From Syntrophaceae bacterium (lineage in GTDB: Bacteria; Desulfobacterota; BSN033; UBA1163): a stretch of 32,020 nucleotides of DNA. The position numbers were made by a program, and so were the translations under genes. This document shows positions 20,454-32,020 of the stretch, piece after piece. Under the pieces are notes generated by a model, which saw only the letters and a list, made by a program, of their open reading frames with translations, was not told where the DNA came from and did not search any database. The stretch lies in assembly GCA_013388645.1 (NCBI GenBank), contig JACAEV010000027.1:1-32020 (forward strand), written 5' to 3'. Numbering within the stretch: position 1 is the stretch's first letter; each line of letters opens with the position of its first letter.

Positions 20454-21092
20454 ATGGAAAAATACCTGAAACAATTGACACCAAAAGAATTGAGCAAAAT
20501 GAACACCATTGCTAAAACAGCGGCTATGCTTTTTAACGAGAGAGGCTATTTGGAGACGAGTATGGATGATATCTCCTCGGCCGCTAAATTGAGTAAAGGG
20601 GGAATCTACCATTATTTTTCAAGCAAAAATGAAATCCTTTATTTTATTTCCACCCATTTCATGGGTCTTTTACTAAAGGATTTGGAGGAGGAGTTAAAGG
20701 GGATACAAGATCCTCTGAAGAAAATCCAATTCATCATTTCCCGGCATATTGGTTTTTATACGAAATATATCGCTGAGGCCAAAACCACCCTCCATGAAGG
20801 GCATCTGCTCCCCCCGCCCTATTTTGAAATGATCGCTGAGCAAGAAAAAAAATATCACCAAATTGTCCAAGAGGTCCTTGGGGAGCTTTTAGGGAGGCAG
20901 ATTTCAAAAGATCAATTAAAGATACTCACCTTTATTCTGTTTGGAACCTGCAATGGGATTTATTATTGGTATGATCCAAAGGGTCCTATGACTCCCGAAA
21001 CACTTTCAAAGATGATGAGTGACATTTTATGTAGGGGATTATTAGGTTTTTGGGAAAAGAGAGAAGCGACCATGAAGGGGGAGGATCACTGA
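20454..21092 (+). CDS. TetR/AcrR-family transcriptional regulator
   Basis: The 212-residue repressor-type regulator has an N-terminal helix-turn-helix (about 15-62) with AAMLFNERGYLETSMDDISSAAKLSKGGIYHYFSSKNE, a textbook TetR DNA-binding domain. The C-terminal ligand domain (about 70-205) resembles those that sense acyl-CoAs, though the ligand cannot be read. No good ribosome binding site precedes the ATG at 20454; an internal ATG at 20499 (MNTIAKT) also fits the family N-terminus. The gene heads a unit with three acyl-CoA dehydrogenases 42 bp downstream and has two operators in front, so it probably controls itself and them. Confidence 0.88.
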   Translation: MEKYLKQLTPKELSKMNTIAKTAAMLFNERGYLETSMDDISSAAKLSKGGIYHYFSSKNEILYFISTHFMGLLLKDLEEELKGIQDPLKKIQFIISRHIGFYTKYIAEAKTTLHEGHLLPPPYFEMIAEQEKKYHQIVQEVLGELLGRQISKDQLKILTFILFGTCNGIYYWYDPKGPMTPETLSKMMSDILCRGLLGFWEKREATMKGEDH

Positions 21093-21134: not shown

Positions 21135-22319
21135 ATGTTTGATCAAACAAGTTTTTTACCAACAAAAGAATTAAAAGATTTTCGAGATAGAATTCACCGA
21201 ATCGCTAAGGATCAGATTGCGCTTCAGGCGACGTTGGTCGATGAGGAAGAATTTTTCAACCGTGAAGTGGAATCGGTGTTATGGGAACATGGATTGTTGA
21301 CACTCACCTTTCCTGAGCGATACGGAGGGTACGGTAAGGGTAGAACCACAGCCTTGTGCATTGCCGTGGAGGAGATTGCAAAAGTTTGTGCGTCCTCTGC
21401 TTTGTTGCTCATCATCCAGGCGGTGGGAAGTTTTCCAATTATTCATGGAGGATCGAGAAAATTAAAGCAAAAATATTTACCGCAGATGAGCCAAGGTCGG
21501 AAATTGGTAGCTTACTTAGTCACTGAACCCACTGCTGGTTCAGATATTGCTAGTATTCAAACAACCGCTGTTCGGGATGGGAATGAATATGTCCTGAATG
21601 GTTCCAAATGCTTCGCGACCAGTGGGGGGGTGGCTGGGATCTATTCTGTTTTAGCAAAAACATCGGAGGAGAAAAGAAATGGGGATAGTTCTTTCTTCCT
21701 TGTCGAAAGGGAATCGTCAGGGTTATCGATCGGAAGAACTGAAAGTAAGCTGGGCCAGAGAGGGTCCAATACCACAGAGGTGTTTTTAGATAATGTGCGG
21801 GTCCCTGCAGAGAATCTATTAGGTCGTGAGGGGGAGGGGTTTCTTATCGCCATGAAAGATTTTGACATGTCGCGACCGACCATCGCTGCCCAGGCTTTAG
21901 GCATTGCAGAAGGGGCGTTTGAGGCTATCCTTGAGTTTATCAAAAATAGCCATACCCTTAAGAAGTCCGTTTCGGATCACCCAGCTATTCAGGCCTTCCT
22001 TGCGGATTCAGCCATCTTGATCGAAGCCTCCCGTGGGCTCACTTACCGCGCAGCGATATTACATGACCAGGGAAAGAGTAATACCAAGTTTGCATCCATG
22101 GCGAAATGCTTTGCAGGAGATGCCGCCATGAAAATCACTACAGATGCTGTGGATGTTATTCAAGTCTTAAATGGGTATGGGTTCTTAAAAAATTTTCAAG
22201 TGGAAAGGATGTTTCGCGACGCGAAATTGACCCAGATTTTTGAAGGGACGAATCAGATACAACGACTGGTCGTGACCCGTCAGATTTTGAAAGAGTCAAT
22301 GTCGTTCGACCAATCATAG
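21135..22319 (+). CDS. Acyl-CoA dehydrogenase, candidate cyclohexanecarboxyl-CoA dehydrogenase
   Basis: This 394-residue FAD flavoprotein has an intact canonical catalytic glutamate, E370 in QIFEGTNQIQ. The substrate/FAD motif LVTEPTAGSDIAS and the segments RGSNTTEVFLDNVRVP and SRPTIAAQALGIAEGA are typical. It shares the helix EEIAKVCASSALLLIIQAVG with the enzymes at 22332 and 29954, so these three form one subfamily. With a normal base it should catalyse ordinary 1,2-dehydrogenation; its neighbour at 22332 suggests cyclohexanecarboxyl-CoA, as in the adjacent pair of Syntrophus. The ribosome binding site (AGAGGTGTGGG) is imperfect. It is the first structural gene after tetR. Confidence 0.83.
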   Translation: MFDQTSFLPTKELKDFRDRIHRIAKDQIALQATLVDEEEFFNREVESVLWEHGLLTLTFPERYGGYGKGRTTALCIAVEEIAKVCASSALLLIIQAVGSFPIIHGGSRKLKQKYLPQMSQGRKLVAYLVTEPTAGSDIASIQTTAVRDGNEYVLNGSKCFATSGGVAGIYSVLAKTSEEKRNGDSSFFLVERESSGLSIGRTESKLGQRGSNTTEVFLDNVRVPAENLLGREGEGFLIAMKDFDMSRPTIAAQALGIAEGAFEAILEFIKNSHTLKKSVSDHPAIQAFLADSAILIEASRGLTYRAAILHDQGKSNTKFASMAKCFAGDAAMKITTDAVDVIQVLNGYGFLKNFQVERMFRDAKLTQIFEGTNQIQRLVVTRQILKESMSFDQS

Positions 22320-22331
22320 AGAGCGGTTTCC

Positions 22332-23480
22332 ATGCTCCAATTAGATGAAGAACAGAGACTGATTCTCCAATCTGTCCGGGAGATTGTCCAAAAAGAGATC
22401 AAACCACGTGCGGCCTCCCTTGATGAGACAGGAGAATTCCCTTGGGATGCCGTTCGGATATTTTCTAAGAACGACATCCTCAACCCTTTGTTGCCCCGAA
22501 GGTATGGAGGGGTGGAAGTTTCCGTCCCTACTTTCTGTATGATCGTTGAGGAGATTGCAAAGGCATGCGCCTCTTCAGCACTCCTGCTTATCACCCAAGC
22601 GGAAGGACCATGGTCCATCATCTATGGAGCCAATGAATTCCTCAAAGAGAAATATTTGAAACGCCTGGCAGGGGATTCCCAAATCCTAACCGGCTTTGGA
22701 GCCATCGAGCCATCTATTGGTTCAAACCTCTTTTCTCTCTCTACCTATGCAGAGGTTCAGGGAACCCATTACCTCCTCCAGGGAGAAAAATGTTTCGTCG
22801 AGAACGGTTCGGTGGCTGATTTTCTGGTGTTGTATGCCTATACCGATCCCTCCAAAGGAGTTCAGGGCATCAGTGCTTTTATTATTGAGAAGGGTTCTTC
22901 AGGTTTGGTCCACCTTAGAGATGAGAATAGGATGGGGATGAGAGGAACCCTCTATTCGGAATATCTATTAGAAAATTTAGCTGTTCCAAGAGAAAACCGG
23001 ATCGGTGAGGAAGGGGATGGGTATTTGAATATGCTGTATACACTCAGTGCAAGTCGTCTTTTCACAGCATCGCAAGCGGTTGGCATCGCACAAGGAGCCA
23101 TGGAGGAAGCCCTTTCCTATGCTCGAAGAAGAGTCCAGTTCGGCAAGACCATTACGCATCACGTCCCTATCCAATTGATGATTGCAGAGATGGCGAGTGG
23201 AATAGAGTCAGCGAGATTACTCACTTACAAAACAGCCTTTCTGTTTGATCAAGGAGAGGCGAAAAAAGCAGGAATCTATGCCGCCATGGCCAAGCTCATC
23301 GCCTCGGATACGGCGATGAAAGTCACGACCGATGCCGTTCAGATCATGGGTGGCTATGGTTATATGAAGGATTACCCAGTAGAGCGGATGATGCGAGATG
23401 CCAAACTCACTCAGATTCATACAGGGACCAATCAAATTATGAAATTAATGATTGGAAGAGATCTTACCGGGATTTCTTGA
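22332..23480 (+). CDS. Unusual acyl-CoA dehydrogenase lacking the canonical Glu; probable cyclohex-1-ene-1-carboxyl-CoA dehydrogenase (1,4-elimination)
   Basis: The 382-residue protein has the full acyl-CoA dehydrogenase fold (ends TDAVQIMGGYGYMKDYPVERM and TNQIMKLMIGR). At the catalytic Glu position it has T364 (QIHTGTNQI). Residue 91 is Glu in LLITQAEGPW, where its paralogs at 21135 and 29954 have Val. The published structure of Ch1CoA dehydrogenase explains its C3,C6 1,4-elimination by a carboxylate base at residue 91 (Asp) and removal of the canonical Glu; the present protein shows the same pair of changes with Glu91. The TEP motif is also altered (AIEPSIGSN). It would make cyclohexa-1,5-diene-1-carboxyl-CoA, the substrate of BamR. 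It starts 12 bp after the previous stop. Confidence 0.8.
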   Translation: MLQLDEEQRLILQSVREIVQKEIKPRAASLDETGEFPWDAVRIFSKNDILNPLLPRRYGGVEVSVPTFCMIVEEIAKACASSALLLITQAEGPWSIIYGANEFLKEKYLKRLAGDSQILTGFGAIEPSIGSNLFSLSTYAEVQGTHYLLQGEKCFVENGSVADFLVLYAYTDPSKGVQGISAFIIEKGSSGLVHLRDENRMGMRGTLYSEYLLENLAVPRENRIGEEGDGYLNMLYTLSASRLFTASQAVGIAQGAMEEALSYARRRVQFGKTITHHVPIQLMIAEMASGIESARLLTYKTAFLFDQGEAKKAGIYAAMAKLIASDTAMKVTTDAVQIMGGYGYMKDYPVERMMRDAKLTQIHTGTNQIMKLMIGRDLTGIS

Positions 23481-23564: not shown

Positions 23565-24713
23565 ATGGATTTCAATCTAACTTCGAGACAACGATTGATC
23601 AAAGAGTCTGTTCGAGAATTCATGGTGGGTGAATGTGACCCCGCCAAGACGCTGGAGATGACGAAGAAAAAAGAATTTCCATGGGAAATTTATAAGAAGG
23701 CAGGGCAGAACGGCTATCTTGCCTCCTACTACCCCAAAGAATTAGGAGGCCAAGGGCTCCCTCTTCTCGATTACTGTCTGATCATGGAGGAAATCATCCG
23801 CTACGATAATCGTATTGGGATGGCTCTCAGTCTCGGGTCCATTCCTGCTAAAACTCTTTTGAGGTTCGGGAATGAAGAACAGAAGAAAAAATACCTTTCA
23901 GGGTTGACAAGAGGAGAGACCGTTTCCTCTATCGCTGTGACCGAACCGAACCATGGGAGCGACATCCGTTTTCTCGATACACAGGCTGTAAAAAGAGGAG
24001 ACGAATACATCCTCAACGGGAACAAAATCTATATTACCAATGCAAATATTGCCGATTTTTACACCGTCTTTGCACAGACCGACCCTGATGCTCCTCCGTA
24101 CCGAGGGATTAGCGGTTTTATCGTTGAGCGAGAGACAGAAGGGGTGACGGCCATTGATCTGGGAGATAAGATCGGCTTAAAAACCACCTCCTCCTGCAGC
24201 ATCGAATTTCGTGATGTGAAAGTCCCAAAGAAAAATCTTTTGGGTAAAGAAAACCATGGTTTTACCTACATCATGGAGGCGTTAAACGAGGGAAGGGCAG
24301 AGATTGCCAATCAAGCGGTTGCGTTAGCCAGAGGGGCTTATGATCGAGCCCTTTTTCATGCAAAAACTCGGGAGCAGTTCGGACAGAAAATTGGGAAGTT
24401 TCAGAACATCTCCCATCTGATTGTCGAGATGTCAGAAGAAATCGAGTCCGCCGCCTTATTAGCCTATAAAGCGGTTTGGTTGATCGATCAGAAAAAGATG
24501 GACCTGGCCACCTCTTTGCAGGCAAAAGTGAAGTGTCCTCTCATGGCGATCAATGTCTGTCTGAAGGCGATGCAAATCCTCGCTGGAGCCGGTCTTTTTG
24601 AGGAGCAATTTCTCCCAGGTTATTTAGGGGATGCTTTAGCCACCTGGCTACTCGAGGGAACAGGTCAGATTCAGAGAAATACCGTAGCAGGAAAAATTTT
24701 GGGGAGGTTGTAA
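23565..24713 (+). CDS. Acyl-CoA dehydrogenase
   Basis: This is a 382-residue FAD-dependent acyl-CoA dehydrogenase with canonical base E364 (LLEGTGQIQRN), the motif AVTEPNHGSDIR and the arginine/glutamine segment KTREQFGQKIGKFQ. It lacks the CASSALL helix of its neighbours (RYDNRIGMALSLGSI instead), so it belongs to another subfamily and acts on a different acyl-CoA; a dicarboxylic or branched acyl-CoA is possible, but I cannot tell. AAGGAGAGAG before the ATG fixes the start. The gap of 84 bp to the previous gene holds no clear promoter or terminator, so it probably belongs to the TetR-controlled unit. Confidence 0.85.
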   Translation: MDFNLTSRQRLIKESVREFMVGECDPAKTLEMTKKKEFPWEIYKKAGQNGYLASYYPKELGGQGLPLLDYCLIMEEIIRYDNRIGMALSLGSIPAKTLLRFGNEEQKKKYLSGLTRGETVSSIAVTEPNHGSDIRFLDTQAVKRGDEYILNGNKIYITNANIADFYTVFAQTDPDAPPYRGISGFIVERETEGVTAIDLGDKIGLKTTSSCSIEFRDVKVPKKNLLGKENHGFTYIMEALNEGRAEIANQAVALARGAYDRALFHAKTREQFGQKIGKFQNISHLIVEMSEEIESAALLAYKAVWLIDQKKMDLATSLQAKVKCPLMAINVCLKAMQILAGAGLFEEQFLPGYLGDALATWLLEGTGQIQRNTVAGKILGRL

Positions 24714-25901: not shown

Positions 25902-27014
25902 ATGGCAGCAATACCTGATAAGATTGAGACTTGGCAAATGGTTCAACCTACAACCAAAAATAAGGAGACAGGAGAAGTCATCCCCGGGAAATTGGCAAAG
26001 GCTTCTATACCCGTTCCAGCGTTAGGACCTGGCGAGGTACTGGTAAAAGTAGCAGGATGCGGGGTTTGCCATACTGATTTGGGATACTTTTACGATGGTG
26101 TTCCCACGGTATCAAAACCTCCGTTAACTCTCGGGCATGAAATTAGTGGGACTGTCGTTGCAGGAGATGAAAAATGGGTTGGGAAAGAAGTCATCATTCC
26201 TTCGGTGATGCCCTGTCGTCAATGTCTCCTTTGCAAGACTGGACGAGGGAATCGTTGTTTGGCTCAAAAGATGCCTGGAAACAGCATTGGGATCTATGGA
26301 GGAAATTCAAGCCATATTCCAGTTCCTTCTATTGATCTCTGTGAGGTGAGGAACCGAGGAAGCATTCCTCTGGAACACCTTGCCGTAGTGGCTGATGCTG
26401 TGACGACTCCGTACCAGGCTGCCAAAAGAGCAGATCTCCAGCCAGGGGACAGGGTCATCATCATTGGGGTGACCGGTGGTGTGGGTGTTTACATGGCTCA
26501 GACAGCAAAAGCTCTGGGCGCGAAGGCGGTGATCGGGATTGCGCGAAATCCCGAGAAACTACAGAGAGCACTAAAATATGGTGCTGATTTTGTGATCAGC
26601 ACCCAGGATAAACAGGTCAAAGATATCCGAAACGAATTTCGTGAGATTTGCAAGAAGCATGGATTGGAGGCGGGTTTTGGTTGGAAGATTTTTGAGGTGA
26701 GTGGAACCAAAGCAGGACAGGATCTCGCCCTCGAGCTTCTCTCTTTTACCGGCAAATTGATTATCATTGGATTTGGGATGGCGAAGAACGAATATAGCAT
26801 TTCCAGGCTCATGGCATTTGATGCAGAGATGATCGGTACCTGGGGATGCCTCCCTGAATATTATCCCATCGTGTTGGATATGGTCCTCACCAAAAAGATT
26901 GATATCGCACCTTTTGTTGAGACGAGACCCATGAGTCAAATTGCATCTGTCTATGATGAAGTTCATAAAGCTGGATCCCCAGCAAAAAGAATCGTCCTGA
27001 CCCCTGATTTTTAG
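25902..27014 (+). CDS. bamQ: 6-hydroxycyclohex-1-ene-1-carbonyl-CoA dehydrogenase
   Basis: The 370-residue zinc-dependent alcohol dehydrogenase-family enzyme (Had/BamQ) oxidises 6-hydroxycyclohex-1-ene-1-carbonyl-CoA to the 6-oxo compound with NAD+ in the benzoyl-CoA pathway. The catalytic zinc site is C56-H57 in CGVCHTD with H79-E80 in LGHE. The structural zinc cysteines are C105, C108, C111 and C119. The nucleotide motif GVTGGVGVYMAQTAKALGA is present. The N-terminal part (KIETWQMVQPT) and the segment FYDGVPTVSKPPLTLGHE are characteristic of Had rather than of general alcohol dehydrogenases. It is followed by bamA after 32 bp, the usual neighbour. GAAAGGGGTGAT precedes the ATG. Confidence 0.9.
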   Translation: MAAIPDKIETWQMVQPTTKNKETGEVIPGKLAKASIPVPALGPGEVLVKVAGCGVCHTDLGYFYDGVPTVSKPPLTLGHEISGTVVAGDEKWVGKEVIIPSVMPCRQCLLCKTGRGNRCLAQKMPGNSIGIYGGNSSHIPVPSIDLCEVRNRGSIPLEHLAVVADAVTTPYQAAKRADLQPGDRVIIIGVTGGVGVYMAQTAKALGAKAVIGIARNPEKLQRALKYGADFVISTQDKQVKDIRNEFREICKKHGLEAGFGWKIFEVSGTKAGQDLALELLSFTGKLIIIGFGMAKNEYSISRLMAFDAEMIGTWGCLPEYYPIVLDMVLTKKIDIAPFVETRPMSQIASVYDEVHKAGSPAKRIVLTPDF

Positions 27015-27046
27015 GTCATCAAATTAAATTGAAAGGAGGAATTTTT

Positions 27047-28180
27047 ATGGCATTAGATTGGTTAGTCAGAGATAATACCCCGAAAGATCATAACCTATTT
27101 GGAGATCAATTTTTTGGAACCACACCACCTTGTACCATGTTTGAGAAAAAACCTTTACTTGATCCAAAGGGGAATGTAGTGGAAGGGTTATATTCAGTTT
27201 GGATTACACTCAATAATCCTGAACAATACAACTCTTATACCACGCAGATGGTAAAGGGTGTCATTGCGGGTATGCATCGGGCCTCTATGGACAAGTCGGT
27301 GGTGGCTGTTGTCTTCACCGGGGCGGGTGATCGGGCTTTCTGCACAGGTGGAAATACGAAAGAGTATTCCGAGTTTTATACCCGAAGACCTAAAGAGTAT
27401 GCCGATTATATGGATCTCTTTTCTGGGATGGTCGATGGGATCTTGAAGTGTCGGGTTCCGGTCATCTGCCGAGCGAATGGGATGAGGATTGCGGGCGGTC
27501 AAGAAATCGGGCAGGCTTGTGATCTTACCGTCGCAGCCGATACGGCATCCTTTGGGCAAGCAGGGACAAGAGCCGGTTCCACGCCGGATGGTGGTTCGAC
27601 AGACTTTTTACCTTGGAACTTGAGCATGGAACAGGCGATGTGGAACTGCATCTCAAACATCCCCTGGAGTGCCTATAAGATGGAGAGGCTGGGATTGATC
27701 ACAAAGGCCATTCCGATTAAAAGGGATAAGGATGGAAACTGGGTCAGGGATCCTCGTGTGATCACTGATAAATATGTTGATAATGGAGAAATCGTTTACG
27801 GTGAGATGAAGACAGGCGAGGAAGCAAAAAAGGCCATGGATTATCTGAAGACATTGAAGACAGATTGGACCCAGTTGGACAACTACATCAATGGAATGAT
27901 TTGGACCTTGGCCAACCTCTTCCCGCTTTGCTTAATGAAATCGGTTGAAACGATTCGGATTAAGAAGAGATTCTGGTGGGACAATACAAAAGCTCACGCT
28001 ATCTACTGGTTGGCTGCCAACATGAATATGGATGCTTGGCTTGGATTCAATGCCTTCAATACCCAGAAAGAGACTGGTTCAAGCGTGATCGACTTCCTCG
28101 AATTCAGGCGCCAGATCGCCAAGGGACATCTTTACGACGAAGAATTGGCAGAATTGGTATTGCCGAAACCAAAGAAGTAG
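27047..28180 (+). CDS. bamA: 6-oxocyclohex-1-ene-1-carbonyl-CoA hydrolase (ring-opening)
   Basis: The 377-residue crotonase-superfamily enzyme (BamA/Oah) adds water twice and opens the ring, giving 3-hydroxypimelyl-CoA; it is a standard marker of anaerobic aromatic degradation. Recognised from its N-terminus LDWLVRDNTPKDHNLFGDQ, the oxyanion region FCTGGNTKEYSEFYTRRPKEY and MRIAGGQEIGQACDLTVAADTASFGQAGTRAGSTPDGGST. Its length is that of the family, well above ordinary enoyl-CoA hydratases. I place the start at 27047, 7-8 nt after GAAAGGAGGA; the frame also runs back to a TTG at 27029. It lies between bamQ and bamR. Confidence 0.95.
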   Translation: MALDWLVRDNTPKDHNLFGDQFFGTTPPCTMFEKKPLLDPKGNVVEGLYSVWITLNNPEQYNSYTTQMVKGVIAGMHRASMDKSVVAVVFTGAGDRAFCTGGNTKEYSEFYTRRPKEYADYMDLFSGMVDGILKCRVPVICRANGMRIAGGQEIGQACDLTVAADTASFGQAGTRAGSTPDGGSTDFLPWNLSMEQAMWNCISNIPWSAYKMERLGLITKAIPIKRDKDGNWVRDPRVITDKYVDNGEIVYGEMKTGEEAKKAMDYLKTLKTDWTQLDNYINGMIWTLANLFPLCLMKSVETIRIKKRFWWDNTKAHAIYWLAANMNMDAWLGFNAFNTQKETGSSVIDFLEFRRQIAKGHLYDEELAELVLPKPKK

Positions 28181-28240: not shown

Positions 28241-29008
28241 ATGGCATTTAAACATATTCAAACAGAATTTAAAGATGGTGTTGCAACCCTCACGTTGAAT
28301 CGAGCTCCCCTCAATGTTCTCAATATCGAAATGATGGAGGAAATCAATACCTATTTCGAAGGATTGAAAAATGAGAAATCTTTAAAACTCCTTGTCATCC
28401 AGGCAGCAGGTAAAGCCTTTTCTGCAGGGGTGGATGTCGGAGAGCATCTGGGCGATCTGGTTTATAAGATGATCGAAGTCTTTCATAAAATGTTCAGATT
28501 AATGGATGCGCTGAAAGTCCCCTCCATTGCTGTTGTGAATGGTTCAGCGCTTGGGGGAGGGTGTGAGTTAGCTCTTTATTGCGACATGGTCATTGCCACG
28601 GAGAGGGCAAAGTTTGGACAACCGGAGATTCAAGTTGGAGTTTTTCCACCCATTGCCGCTCTGGTCTTTCCGAGGATGATCGGCCGGAAGAAAGCTTTGG
28701 AATTAATTCTCTCAGGCGATGTTATTAGTGCCCAAGAAGCATTCAACTTGGGATTGGTCAATAAGATTGTTCCTGAGGCATCCATAATTGAAGAAGTGAA
28801 TGGATTCGTCGAGAAGTTTAAAAAATTGAGCGGAATTGTTTTAAAACTAACCAAAGAAGCAACCCTTGCGGGCCTCAATGACGATATGGACCAGGGTCTC
28901 AAAGCGATTGAGAAAATTTATCTGGATCGTTTGATGAGAACCAATGATGCCATCGAAGGATTGAAAGCCTTCTTGGAAAAGCGAAAACCCACCTGGAAAG
29001 ACAACTAA
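28241..29008 (+). CDS. bamR: Cyclohexa-1,5-diene-1-carbonyl-CoA hydratase (dienoyl-CoA hydratase)
   Basis: The 255-residue crotonase-family enzyme hydrates the cyclic 1,5-dienoyl-CoA to 6-hydroxycyclohex-1-ene-1-carbonyl-CoA. Motifs are the first oxyanion segment KAFSAGVDVGEHLGD, then MIEVFHKMFRLMDALKVPSIAVVNG, and the second oxyanion segment GSALGGGCELALYCDMV with GQPEIQVGVFPP. The DVGEH and VFPP features are those of BamR/Dch and not of general enoyl-CoA hydratases, which have a Glu at the second acid position. The gene order with bamQ and bamA supports the call. GGAGGGGGTGG precedes the ATG. A hairpin follows the stop. Confidence 0.87.
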   Translation: MAFKHIQTEFKDGVATLTLNRAPLNVLNIEMMEEINTYFEGLKNEKSLKLLVIQAAGKAFSAGVDVGEHLGDLVYKMIEVFHKMFRLMDALKVPSIAVVNGSALGGGCELALYCDMVIATERAKFGQPEIQVGVFPPIAALVFPRMIGRKKALELILSGDVISAQEAFNLGLVNKIVPEASIIEEVNGFVEKFKKLSGIVLKLTKEATLAGLNDDMDQGLKAIEKIYLDRLMRTNDAIEGLKAFLEKRKPTWKDN

Positions 29009-29953: not shown

Positions 29954-31099
29954 ATGACTAATATCGAACAAGAAAGGGAAGGGTGGAGGGAAAAAGCCAG
30001 AGAGGTAGCCCAAAAGGTGGTTGCCCCTCGGGCAACGGAGATCGATGAAAAAGGGGAATTTGGATGGGATCTTGTTGAGGAGTATTCCAAACACGGATTT
30101 TTGAGCCTCCTCATTCCTAAAGAATACGGAGGAATGGATACCGATATCACTTCTTTCTGTTTGGTCGCTGAGGAAATTGCAAAAGTCTGTGCCTCTTCTG
30201 CCCTCCTCGTGATCGTTCAAGCCGTGGGGACCATGCCTGTGGTATTGGGTGGGACCGATGAATTGAAGGAGAGAATATTACCGCGATTAGCAAAAGAGAA
30301 GGGTCTCATCTGTTTTTGCTTGACCGAGCCTGAGTCAGGTTCGGATGCAGCCTCTGTGCGAACCAAAGCTGTTTTAAAAGATGACCATTACGTGATCAAC
30401 GGGAGGAAATGTTTTATTACAAACGGCGGGGTGTCGGATTTCTATACGATCTTTGCCACCACTCAACCCGACAAGAAAATAGAGGGCATTACAGGTTTTG
30501 TGGTAGAAAAAGGGACCCCAGGTCTTGCTGTTGGGAAAACCGAAGAGAAGATGGGCATTCGGGGTTCCAATACGACAGAAGTGATTTTAGAGGATGTCAG
30601 AGTTCCCATTGCTCAACGGATCGGCGAGGAAGGCGGGGCCTGGTGGCAAATGATGAGAACGCTCAATCGGTCGAGGCCGGCGATCGGGGCTCAAGCAGTG
30701 GGTCTGGCTCAAGGCGCCTTGGACTACGTCATCCAATGGTTTCAAGAAAAAGGCTGGGTGAAGGGGAAGGAAGATCCCCTGGGTGTTGAAGGGACGCTCG
30801 CTGATATGGCGATAGAGATCGAGGCTGCCAGAGCGCTTGTTTATAAAGCGGCTGAGATGATGGATGAGAAGATAAAAGGAACTCCAGTTCAGATGTTTTC
30901 GGCCATGTCCAAATACTTCGCCTCGGATGTGGCCATGAAAGTGACCACCAATGCCGTTCAGGTTTTACAATGGCAGGGCCTTACCAGAAACCACCCTGTT
31001 GAGCGAATGATGCGAGATGCAAAGATCATCCAGATTTTTGAAGGGACGAATCAAATCCAGAGGATGGTGGTGGCGCATACCTTACTGAAAGTAAAGTGA
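29954..31099 (+). CDS. Acyl-CoA dehydrogenase, candidate cyclohexanecarboxyl-CoA dehydrogenase paralog
   Basis: The 381-residue FAD enzyme has the canonical base E363 (QIFEGTNQIQ), CLTEPESGSDAAS and RGSNTTEVILEDVRVP. It aligns without gaps to the enzyme at 22332 over the first 100 residues, with V91 where that one has E91, and shares EEIAKVCASSALLVIVQAVG with 21135. It should therefore perform ordinary 1,2-dehydrogenation of a cyclic or similar acyl-CoA. One odd feature is the replacement of the usual glycine-rich loop by VLQWQGLTRNHPVERMMRDAK. The start has GAAGCAGGAG about 9 nt upstream. Confidence 0.83.
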   Translation: MTNIEQEREGWREKAREVAQKVVAPRATEIDEKGEFGWDLVEEYSKHGFLSLLIPKEYGGMDTDITSFCLVAEEIAKVCASSALLVIVQAVGTMPVVLGGTDELKERILPRLAKEKGLICFCLTEPESGSDAASVRTKAVLKDDHYVINGRKCFITNGGVSDFYTIFATTQPDKKIEGITGFVVEKGTPGLAVGKTEEKMGIRGSNTTEVILEDVRVPIAQRIGEEGGAWWQMMRTLNRSRPAIGAQAVGLAQGALDYVIQWFQEKGWVKGKEDPLGVEGTLADMAIEIEAARALVYKAAEMMDEKIKGTPVQMFSAMSKYFASDVAMKVTTNAVQVLQWQGLTRNHPVERMMRDAKIIQIFEGTNQIQRMVVAHTLLKVK

Positions 31100-31292: not shown

Positions 31293-32020
31293 ATGATTAT
31301 CTTCACTCACCATACAGGCGAGCCCCATGGAATACTGGGGGCTCAGGTGGCAGCCACCTTCTTCCAGCGAAAACTCTTGATCCCTTCAATCGTCGTTGGG
31401 GTCAGGAGGGACTTTTCAAAGGAACGATTGTTTGGTTTTATAGATAAATATTATGAGAGAGAAGAAAAGGTAGTCGCTTTCTCGCATCTCTGTGGCAGAA
31501 AAGATCTGATCGGGTTAGCGCAAGAGCTGAAGCAAATGGGTTTTATTACCCTTCTGGGAGGGCCACAAGCCAGGCAGGATTACTATGGCGAACCGGAGAC
31601 AAACTCCCACCCACACCGGTTCAGAGGGCTGAGAGCAGTTATGGATATTGGCTTTCATGGACCGGTTGATGGATTGAACTTAGAACATCTTAAAAGGGGA
31701 GGGACGTTCCTTGAACATTCGTGGGAGAAAAATATATTCCTCGAGGTCGATTGGTCAAACCTTTATACATTCTCGGACACCCTGAAGAAGCTCGATGTTC
31801 AGTTGGGACAAGTCTTACATGCGGTGGGCTGCCCCTATTCCAAAAAGACCCAGACAGTCGTCCTCCCGCCACCCGTTCTCCTAAGGGGAAAAGGTATCCC
31901 AGAAATAAAGGTTCGTAGCGAGGGGTGCATTTTCTGCGATGTCTCACGAGATAAGGGTTATCATGGTTCCTTAGAGATGGACAGAGTTCTCGCTCAGATG
32001 GAGGGTCTGCCTGAAGTCGA
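31293..32020 (+). CDS. Partial: cobalamin-binding-like / radical-SAM-like protein, cut by window end
   Basis: An open frame of 242 complete codons runs off the right edge without a stop. The first about 120 residues (IFTHHTGEPHGILGAQVAATFF, later LAQELKQMGFITLLGGPQA) resemble the Rossmann-like cobalamin-binding region of B12-radical SAM proteins. SEGCIFCDVSRDKGYHG follows, with C212 and C215. Only two close cysteines are visible, not the CX3CX2C triplet, although a third (in AVGCPYSKK) lies about 33 residues earlier. The start is the first ATG after an in-frame stop at 31278; the ribosome binding site is weak. Function cannot be given without the missing part. Confidence 0.65.
   Translation, partial: MIIFTHHTGEPHGILGAQVAATFFQRKLLIPSIVVGVRRDFSKERLFGFIDKYYEREEKVVAFSHLCGRKDLIGLAQELKQMGFITLLGGPQARQDYYGEPETNSHPHRFRGLRAVMDIGFHGPVDGLNLEHLKRGGTFLEHSWEKNIFLEVDWSNLYTFSDTLKKLDVQLGQVLHAVGCPYSKKTQTVVLPPPVLLRGKGIPEIKVRSEGCIFCDVSRDKGYHGSLEMDRVLAQMEGLPEV

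Follow-up and report, generated by a model that had tools for sequence, protein, structure and literature searches.

A Glu91 ortholog of cyclohex-1-ene-1-carboxyl-CoA dehydrogenase as a candidate non-flavin subunit of a heteromeric acyl-CoA dehydrogenase in a Syntrophaceae bacterium

The window, meaning the whole stretch of 32,020 nt analysed here (contig JACAEV010000027.1 of assembly GCA_013388645.1), carries two adjacent acyl-CoA dehydrogenase genes within a larger gene cluster, and all of the features described below lie on its forward strand. A TetR-type regulator (20454..21092), conserved in this position, lies 5' of protein B (21135..22319), a cyclohexanecarboxyl-CoA dehydrogenase-like protein. 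Only 12 nt separate B from protein Q downstream (22332..23480), a 382-residue ORF orthologous to cyclohex-1-ene-1-carboxyl-CoA (Ch1CoA) dehydrogenase, and a third acyl-CoA dehydrogenase (23565..24713) is conserved 3' of Q. Further along are a 6-hydroxycyclohex-1-ene-1-carbonyl-CoA dehydrogenase (25902..27014; TIGR03201 above cut-off), a 6-oxocyclohex-1-ene-1-carbonyl-CoA hydrolase (27029..28180; TIGR03200 above cut-off), an enoyl-CoA hydratase family protein that is probably a cyclohexa-1,5-diene-carbonyl-CoA hydratase (28241..29008; TIGR03189 below its cut-off) and another acyl-CoA dehydrogenase (29954..31099); two SDRs also belong to the cluster. Outside the window, the genome encodes a BamB-type subunit of class II benzoyl-CoA reductase (L174, G000:C235:2431-3021; 1140 bits to 4z3w), and the cluster and BamB together represent the benzoyl-CoA pathway found in obligate anaerobes. 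An ORF at 31293-32018 is truncated by the contig end, and a 64% homolog of it (L163) is found near the ortholog of the 29954 gene in the congener G015.

Comparison with PDB sequences identified Ch1CoA dehydrogenase (7p98/7p9a/7p9x) as the best solved relative of Q (452 bits, with the runner-up at 296), and the same three entries were its top Foldseek matches, at 56% identity and TM 0.93-0.95. The structure of this enzyme reportedly attributes its 1,4-elimination to a catalytic Asp91 combined with removal of the canonical Glu. The first-pass annotation had called Q a Glu variant of that enzyme, and its reading of the two residues was borne out by the ORF and the alignment: residue 91 is Glu (ITQAEGPW; codon at 22602..22604, computed from the ORF start), against Val in the proteins encoded at 21135 and 29954, and Thr occupies position 364 (QIHTGTNQI; codon at 23421..23423) where the window's four other dehydrogenases have Glu at the catalytic position. 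Glu91 falls exactly on Asp91 of 7p98, in an alignment that is gapless from residue 2 to beyond 91, and Thr364 corresponds to Thr363 of 7p98. No other carboxylate replaces the canonical Glu at the isovaleryl position, where Q has LSASR and the class has ..ER. Glu157, a new acid near flavin N5, was also considered as a substitute and rejected, as it replaces a flavin contact. Sequence, fold and tree placement agree that Q descends from Ch1CoA dehydrogenase, and its canonical Glu is gone.

To place these residues within the family we used the named genomes, 395 genomes of the phylum and 7p98, which yielded 18 other Ch1CoA dehydrogenases. All 18 have Asp91 and the flavin motifs TEP, GSD and F-I-T. 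Glu91 occurs only in Q and in a 74%-identical ortholog from a congener (L031 = L030 = L168), and nowhere in the set does it stand alongside an intact flavin site. These two proteins form one branch inside the Asp91 clade (support 99/97, stem 0.39), and the change from Asp to Glu therefore happened once; since the ortholog shares Glu91 and Asp91 is invariant in the 18 others, Glu91 is not a chance substitution. Among the 29 acyl-CoA dehydrogenase loci of the genome, which is 95% complete, only Q combines Glu91 with absence of the canonical Glu, and no second, intact Ch1CoA dehydrogenase was found.

The FAD of acyl-CoA dehydrogenases lies at the dimer interface, with the flavin ring on the beta-domain of one subunit and the ADP part on the C-terminal domain of the other. 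We scored these two halves separately, as a cis half for the subunit's own flavin and a trans half for the FAD of its neighbour. The cis half of Q is damaged. Its flavin loop (residues 123-133, GAIEPSIGSNL; 22698..22730) is degenerate relative to the A.TEP.AGSD. of the others, with T125I, A129I and D132N, and Thr157 has become Glu in KCFVEN (residues 153-158; 22788..22805), giving IEPSIGSN and FVEN in place of TEP..GSD and F-I-T. The ortholog shares T125I, has Lys at position 157 and DSD (G130D) rather than the GSN of Q; Thr125, Thr157 and GSD are kept in 18/18 other family members. Pocket positions that are invariant elsewhere in the family are also altered in Q and its ortholog (A88T, P95S, Y363H/F). 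The trans half is intact: RRVQFGK (residues 266-272; 23127..23147) and DAVQIMGGYGYM (residues 334-345, including Gln337 and Gly341; 23331..23366) are fully kept in both species, and Q has lost none of 11 invariant trans positions (R267, Q337 and G341 are present).

Residue equivalences to human SCAD were mapped by motif. Positions 125 and 157 correspond to S155 and T187, which hydrogen-bond the isoalloxazine ring, and position 130 to G160, which contacts the ribityl/pyrophosphate part and whose replacement in G160S abolishes activity; R297, Q365 and G369 of the adjacent monomer complete the FAD site, which spans the dimer interface (PMC13027082). The counterpart of Thr157 in methylsuccinyl-CoA dehydrogenase forms a bond with flavin N5 (PMC5798300). 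Acyl-CoA oxidases have Gly at this position, and loss of Thr157 alone is therefore not decisive for FAD binding. On the residues it has lost, Q has probably lost flavin binding at its own active site and, because the flavin required is then probably absent from the Q subunit, Glu91 is unlikely to act as base in a 1,4-elimination. The earlier proposal of the same chemistry with Glu for Asp is thus doubtful and not supported: Glu91 is confined to two proteins with lost flavin-ring contacts, an altered pocket and a relaxed FAD domain.

The hypergeometric enrichment of losses at cis positions is weak (P = 0.017 in Q and 0.13 in the ortholog) because the entire beta-domain has relaxed. Comparison of Q with its ortholog gives identities of 80% for the N-terminal domain, 56% for the beta (FAD) domain and 85% for the C-terminal domain; the beta-domain has a dN/dS of 0.25, against 0.07-0.08 for the other two domains (dS about 1.2). 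The excess divergence of the beta-domain is 2.6-fold (ratio 2.56, P = 4e-8), whereas 83 intact pairs that have diverged to a similar degree do not go above 1.49; B shows the reverse, with 92% identity in the beta-domain and a ratio of 0.44. The helical N and C domains of Q are under purifying selection and are as constrained as those of B. As counter-evidence to a link between beta-domain excess and flavin loss, one pair of very similar Ch1CoA dehydrogenases (L141/L142, from G223 and G265) has a beta ratio of 3.77 at 8% divergence despite intact flavin motifs.

An AF2 model of Q shows a complete acyl-CoA dehydrogenase fold with good confidence (pLDDT 87.6, pTM 0.90), and residues 126-132, within the flavin loop, are its only segment with pLDDT below 50. 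In a control model of L100, an ortholog with intact flavin site built from the same aligned sequences, no segment fell below 50, and the block means were 76 and 82, compared with 56 and 66 in Q. A simple pseudogene was considered for Q and set aside, as the frame is open with no stop or frameshift and the N and C domains are constrained.

Protein B shows the complementary pattern, in that both its cis flavin half and its catalytic Glu are preserved, whereas its trans half is damaged. Its best NCBIfam match is NF043006, at 562 bits against a family cut-off of 650. In the window, the R..FGK motif of B has become NSHTLKK, with loss of R267, F270 and G271, and a three-residue insertion before the trans Gln is accompanied by G340N and Y344F, such that five of the 11 invariant trans positions are lost if Y344F is counted (P = 0.006). 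The B of G015 has kept R..FGK and shows only the insertion, G340S and Y344F, a partial loss. Beside intact Q orthologs, eight B-type proteins have an essentially intact trans half. Reciprocal loss in the neighbouring gene is clear in the window and partial in G015, but a damaged B also occurs where Q is missing.

Damage to B is also found in seven genomes of a sister genus (L184-L190, g4), where B is 72-78% identical, its trans half is damaged and Q is absent. A gene of the 23565 type lies directly 3' of B in this genus, and the regulator, B and this gene remain together. Q is missing from three congeners as well. The damage to B therefore does not require Q, and the sister-genus B must either tolerate it or use another partner; a scan of all dehydrogenases in one of the genomes of this genus (G009) found no cis-damaged candidate partner. 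Strict dependence of B on Q as a general rule is rejected, as the sister genus retains B without Q.

The same scoring across the genome identified four cis-damaged acyl-CoA dehydrogenases (Q, L004, L027 and L028) and four trans-damaged ones (B, 29954, L020 and L023), with no protein in both sets. Three of the four cis/trans pairs are adjacent genes (permutation P = 0.0009, taking the analyst-set cut-offs as given and leaving out one truncated locus). The non-adjacent pair consists of the 29954 protein, with its cis FAD half intact and its trans half lost, and L004 (G000:C115:28631-29752), its predicted cis-damaged counterpart. Trans loss of the 29954 type occurs in seven genomes of the family, six of which have cis damage of the L004 type, and the two types are sister groups in the tree; 29954 with L004 and L129 may represent a second, older reciprocal pair. 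The adjacent pairs L020/L027 (G000:C9) and L023/L028 (G000:C68), with complementary half-site losses, are probably heteromeric too, and for L020/L027 no close named heteromer was found among PDB sequences. The third dehydrogenase of the window, at 23565, has both FAD halves intact.

Our data suggest that Q is a former Ch1CoA dehydrogenase that would now pair with B to form a heteromeric acyl-CoA dehydrogenase in which Q is the subunit without flavin, a reading to which we give slightly more credence than doubt. The homology, the residue losses, their complementary pattern, the domain-specific rates and the nesting in the tree are observed. In such a B:Q dimer, the beta-domain of B and the C-terminal domain of Q would make up an intact site; the other site, from the beta-domain of Q and the C-terminal domain of B, would be damaged on both sides, leaving one working FAD site. 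The working site would contain the canonical Glu of B and no acid at position 91, and ordinary 1,2-dehydrogenation would therefore be expected, with an alicyclic acyl-CoA such as cyclohexanecarboxyl-CoA as the substrate. Glu91 would then reflect drift in a retired active site, not a new base for 1,4-elimination.

Absence of Q from the sister genus, although the regulator, B and the 23565-type gene stay together there, and its absence from three congeners could also be explained if Q were a redundant gene that is decaying, flavin site first, and has already been deleted outright in related genomes. The long stem of the Glu91 clade (0.39) would fit such a course. However, Q has neither a stop nor a frameshift, its N and C domains have remained as constrained as those of B over a dS of about 1.2, and its trans FAD motifs are complete in both species, and we consider decay rather unlikely. 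It is because the sister genus carries a damaged B without Q, and because G009 yielded no partner, that we hold the heteromer only a little above an even chance and leave decay a minor share. Somewhat harder to sustain is a working FAD enzyme that performs the 1,4-elimination of Ch1CoA with Glu91 replacing Asp91. Its 56% identity to 7p98, the exact match of Glu91 to Asp91, the retention of Glu91 in both species and the lack of any other such protein in a genome that is 95% complete and encodes BamB and the rest of the pathway would all be in keeping with this, but the flavin contacts at T125, T157 and D132/G130 have been lost together with A88, P95 and Y363 of the pocket, the FAD domain has relaxed, and Glu91 is never seen with an intact flavin site.

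Conservation of the N and C domains, which form the CoA and substrate side, and of an acid at position 91 in both species would suit a folded, flavin-free Glu91 pocket that now binds alicyclic CoA esters or converts them by a non-redox reaction; A88, P95 and Y363 have drifted, though, and there is no positive sign of a new reaction, which makes this role very improbable. A bolder combination, for which we see hardly any likelihood, is that cyclohexanecarboxyl-CoA dehydrogenase and Ch1CoA dehydrogenase, two homomeric enzymes from the same pathway, have merged in this lineage into one obligate heteromer, and that the flavin-free Glu91 pocket of Q has kept an activity towards the ring; it might, for instance, isomerise Ch1CoA or the diene by shuttling a proton.

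If the heteromer of B and Q does exist, two consecutive enzymes of a pathway would have been caught in a recent change into a single split-site enzyme, and this could be compared with intact pairs in relatives and with a partly changed pair in the sister species. The Glu91 protein should then not be annotated as a Ch1CoA dehydrogenase. The lineage may also lack interconversion of Ch1CoA and the diene, in which case it could neither form nor consume cyclohexane carboxylate through the Syntrophus route. Scoring of cis and trans half-sites would, moreover, provide a simple means of spotting heteromeric acyl-CoA dehydrogenases in any genome.

Q resembles Ch1CoA dehydrogenase (7p98) as its best match in sequence and fold, in the missing canonical Glu and in having an acid at position 91, and the Ch1CoA dehydrogenase genes of relatives are likewise arranged in tandem with one for a cyclohexanecarboxyl-CoA dehydrogenase-like protein. 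It differs in that the acid is Glu, T125, T157 and the GSD loop are lost, and residues 88, 95 and 363 are changed. B scores best as a cyclohexanecarboxyl-CoA dehydrogenase of the NF043006 type and has the canonical Glu, preceded by Phe, as seen in enzymes that act on alpha-substituted substrates (PMC11659651), but it falls below the curated cut-off and its trans FAD half is damaged. In ChsE4-ChsE5 and ChsE1-ChsE2, the alpha subunit provides both the isoalloxazine site and the catalytic Glu, and contacts to the ADP-ribose come from the beta subunit (PMC11153573); Q, with its own flavin half lost and its trans half kept, has the makeup of a beta-type subunit. The proposed B:Q enzyme would thus share a split FAD site with the alpha2beta2 acyl-CoA dehydrogenases of steroid degraders, namely ChsE4-ChsE5 (mycobacterial), ChsE1-ChsE2 and IpdE1-IpdE2, whereas it belongs to another subfamily and pathway and is predicted from sequence. 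Unlike in those heteromers, B and Q correspond to separate and intact enzymes in relatives, and in the sister species the loss is only partial.
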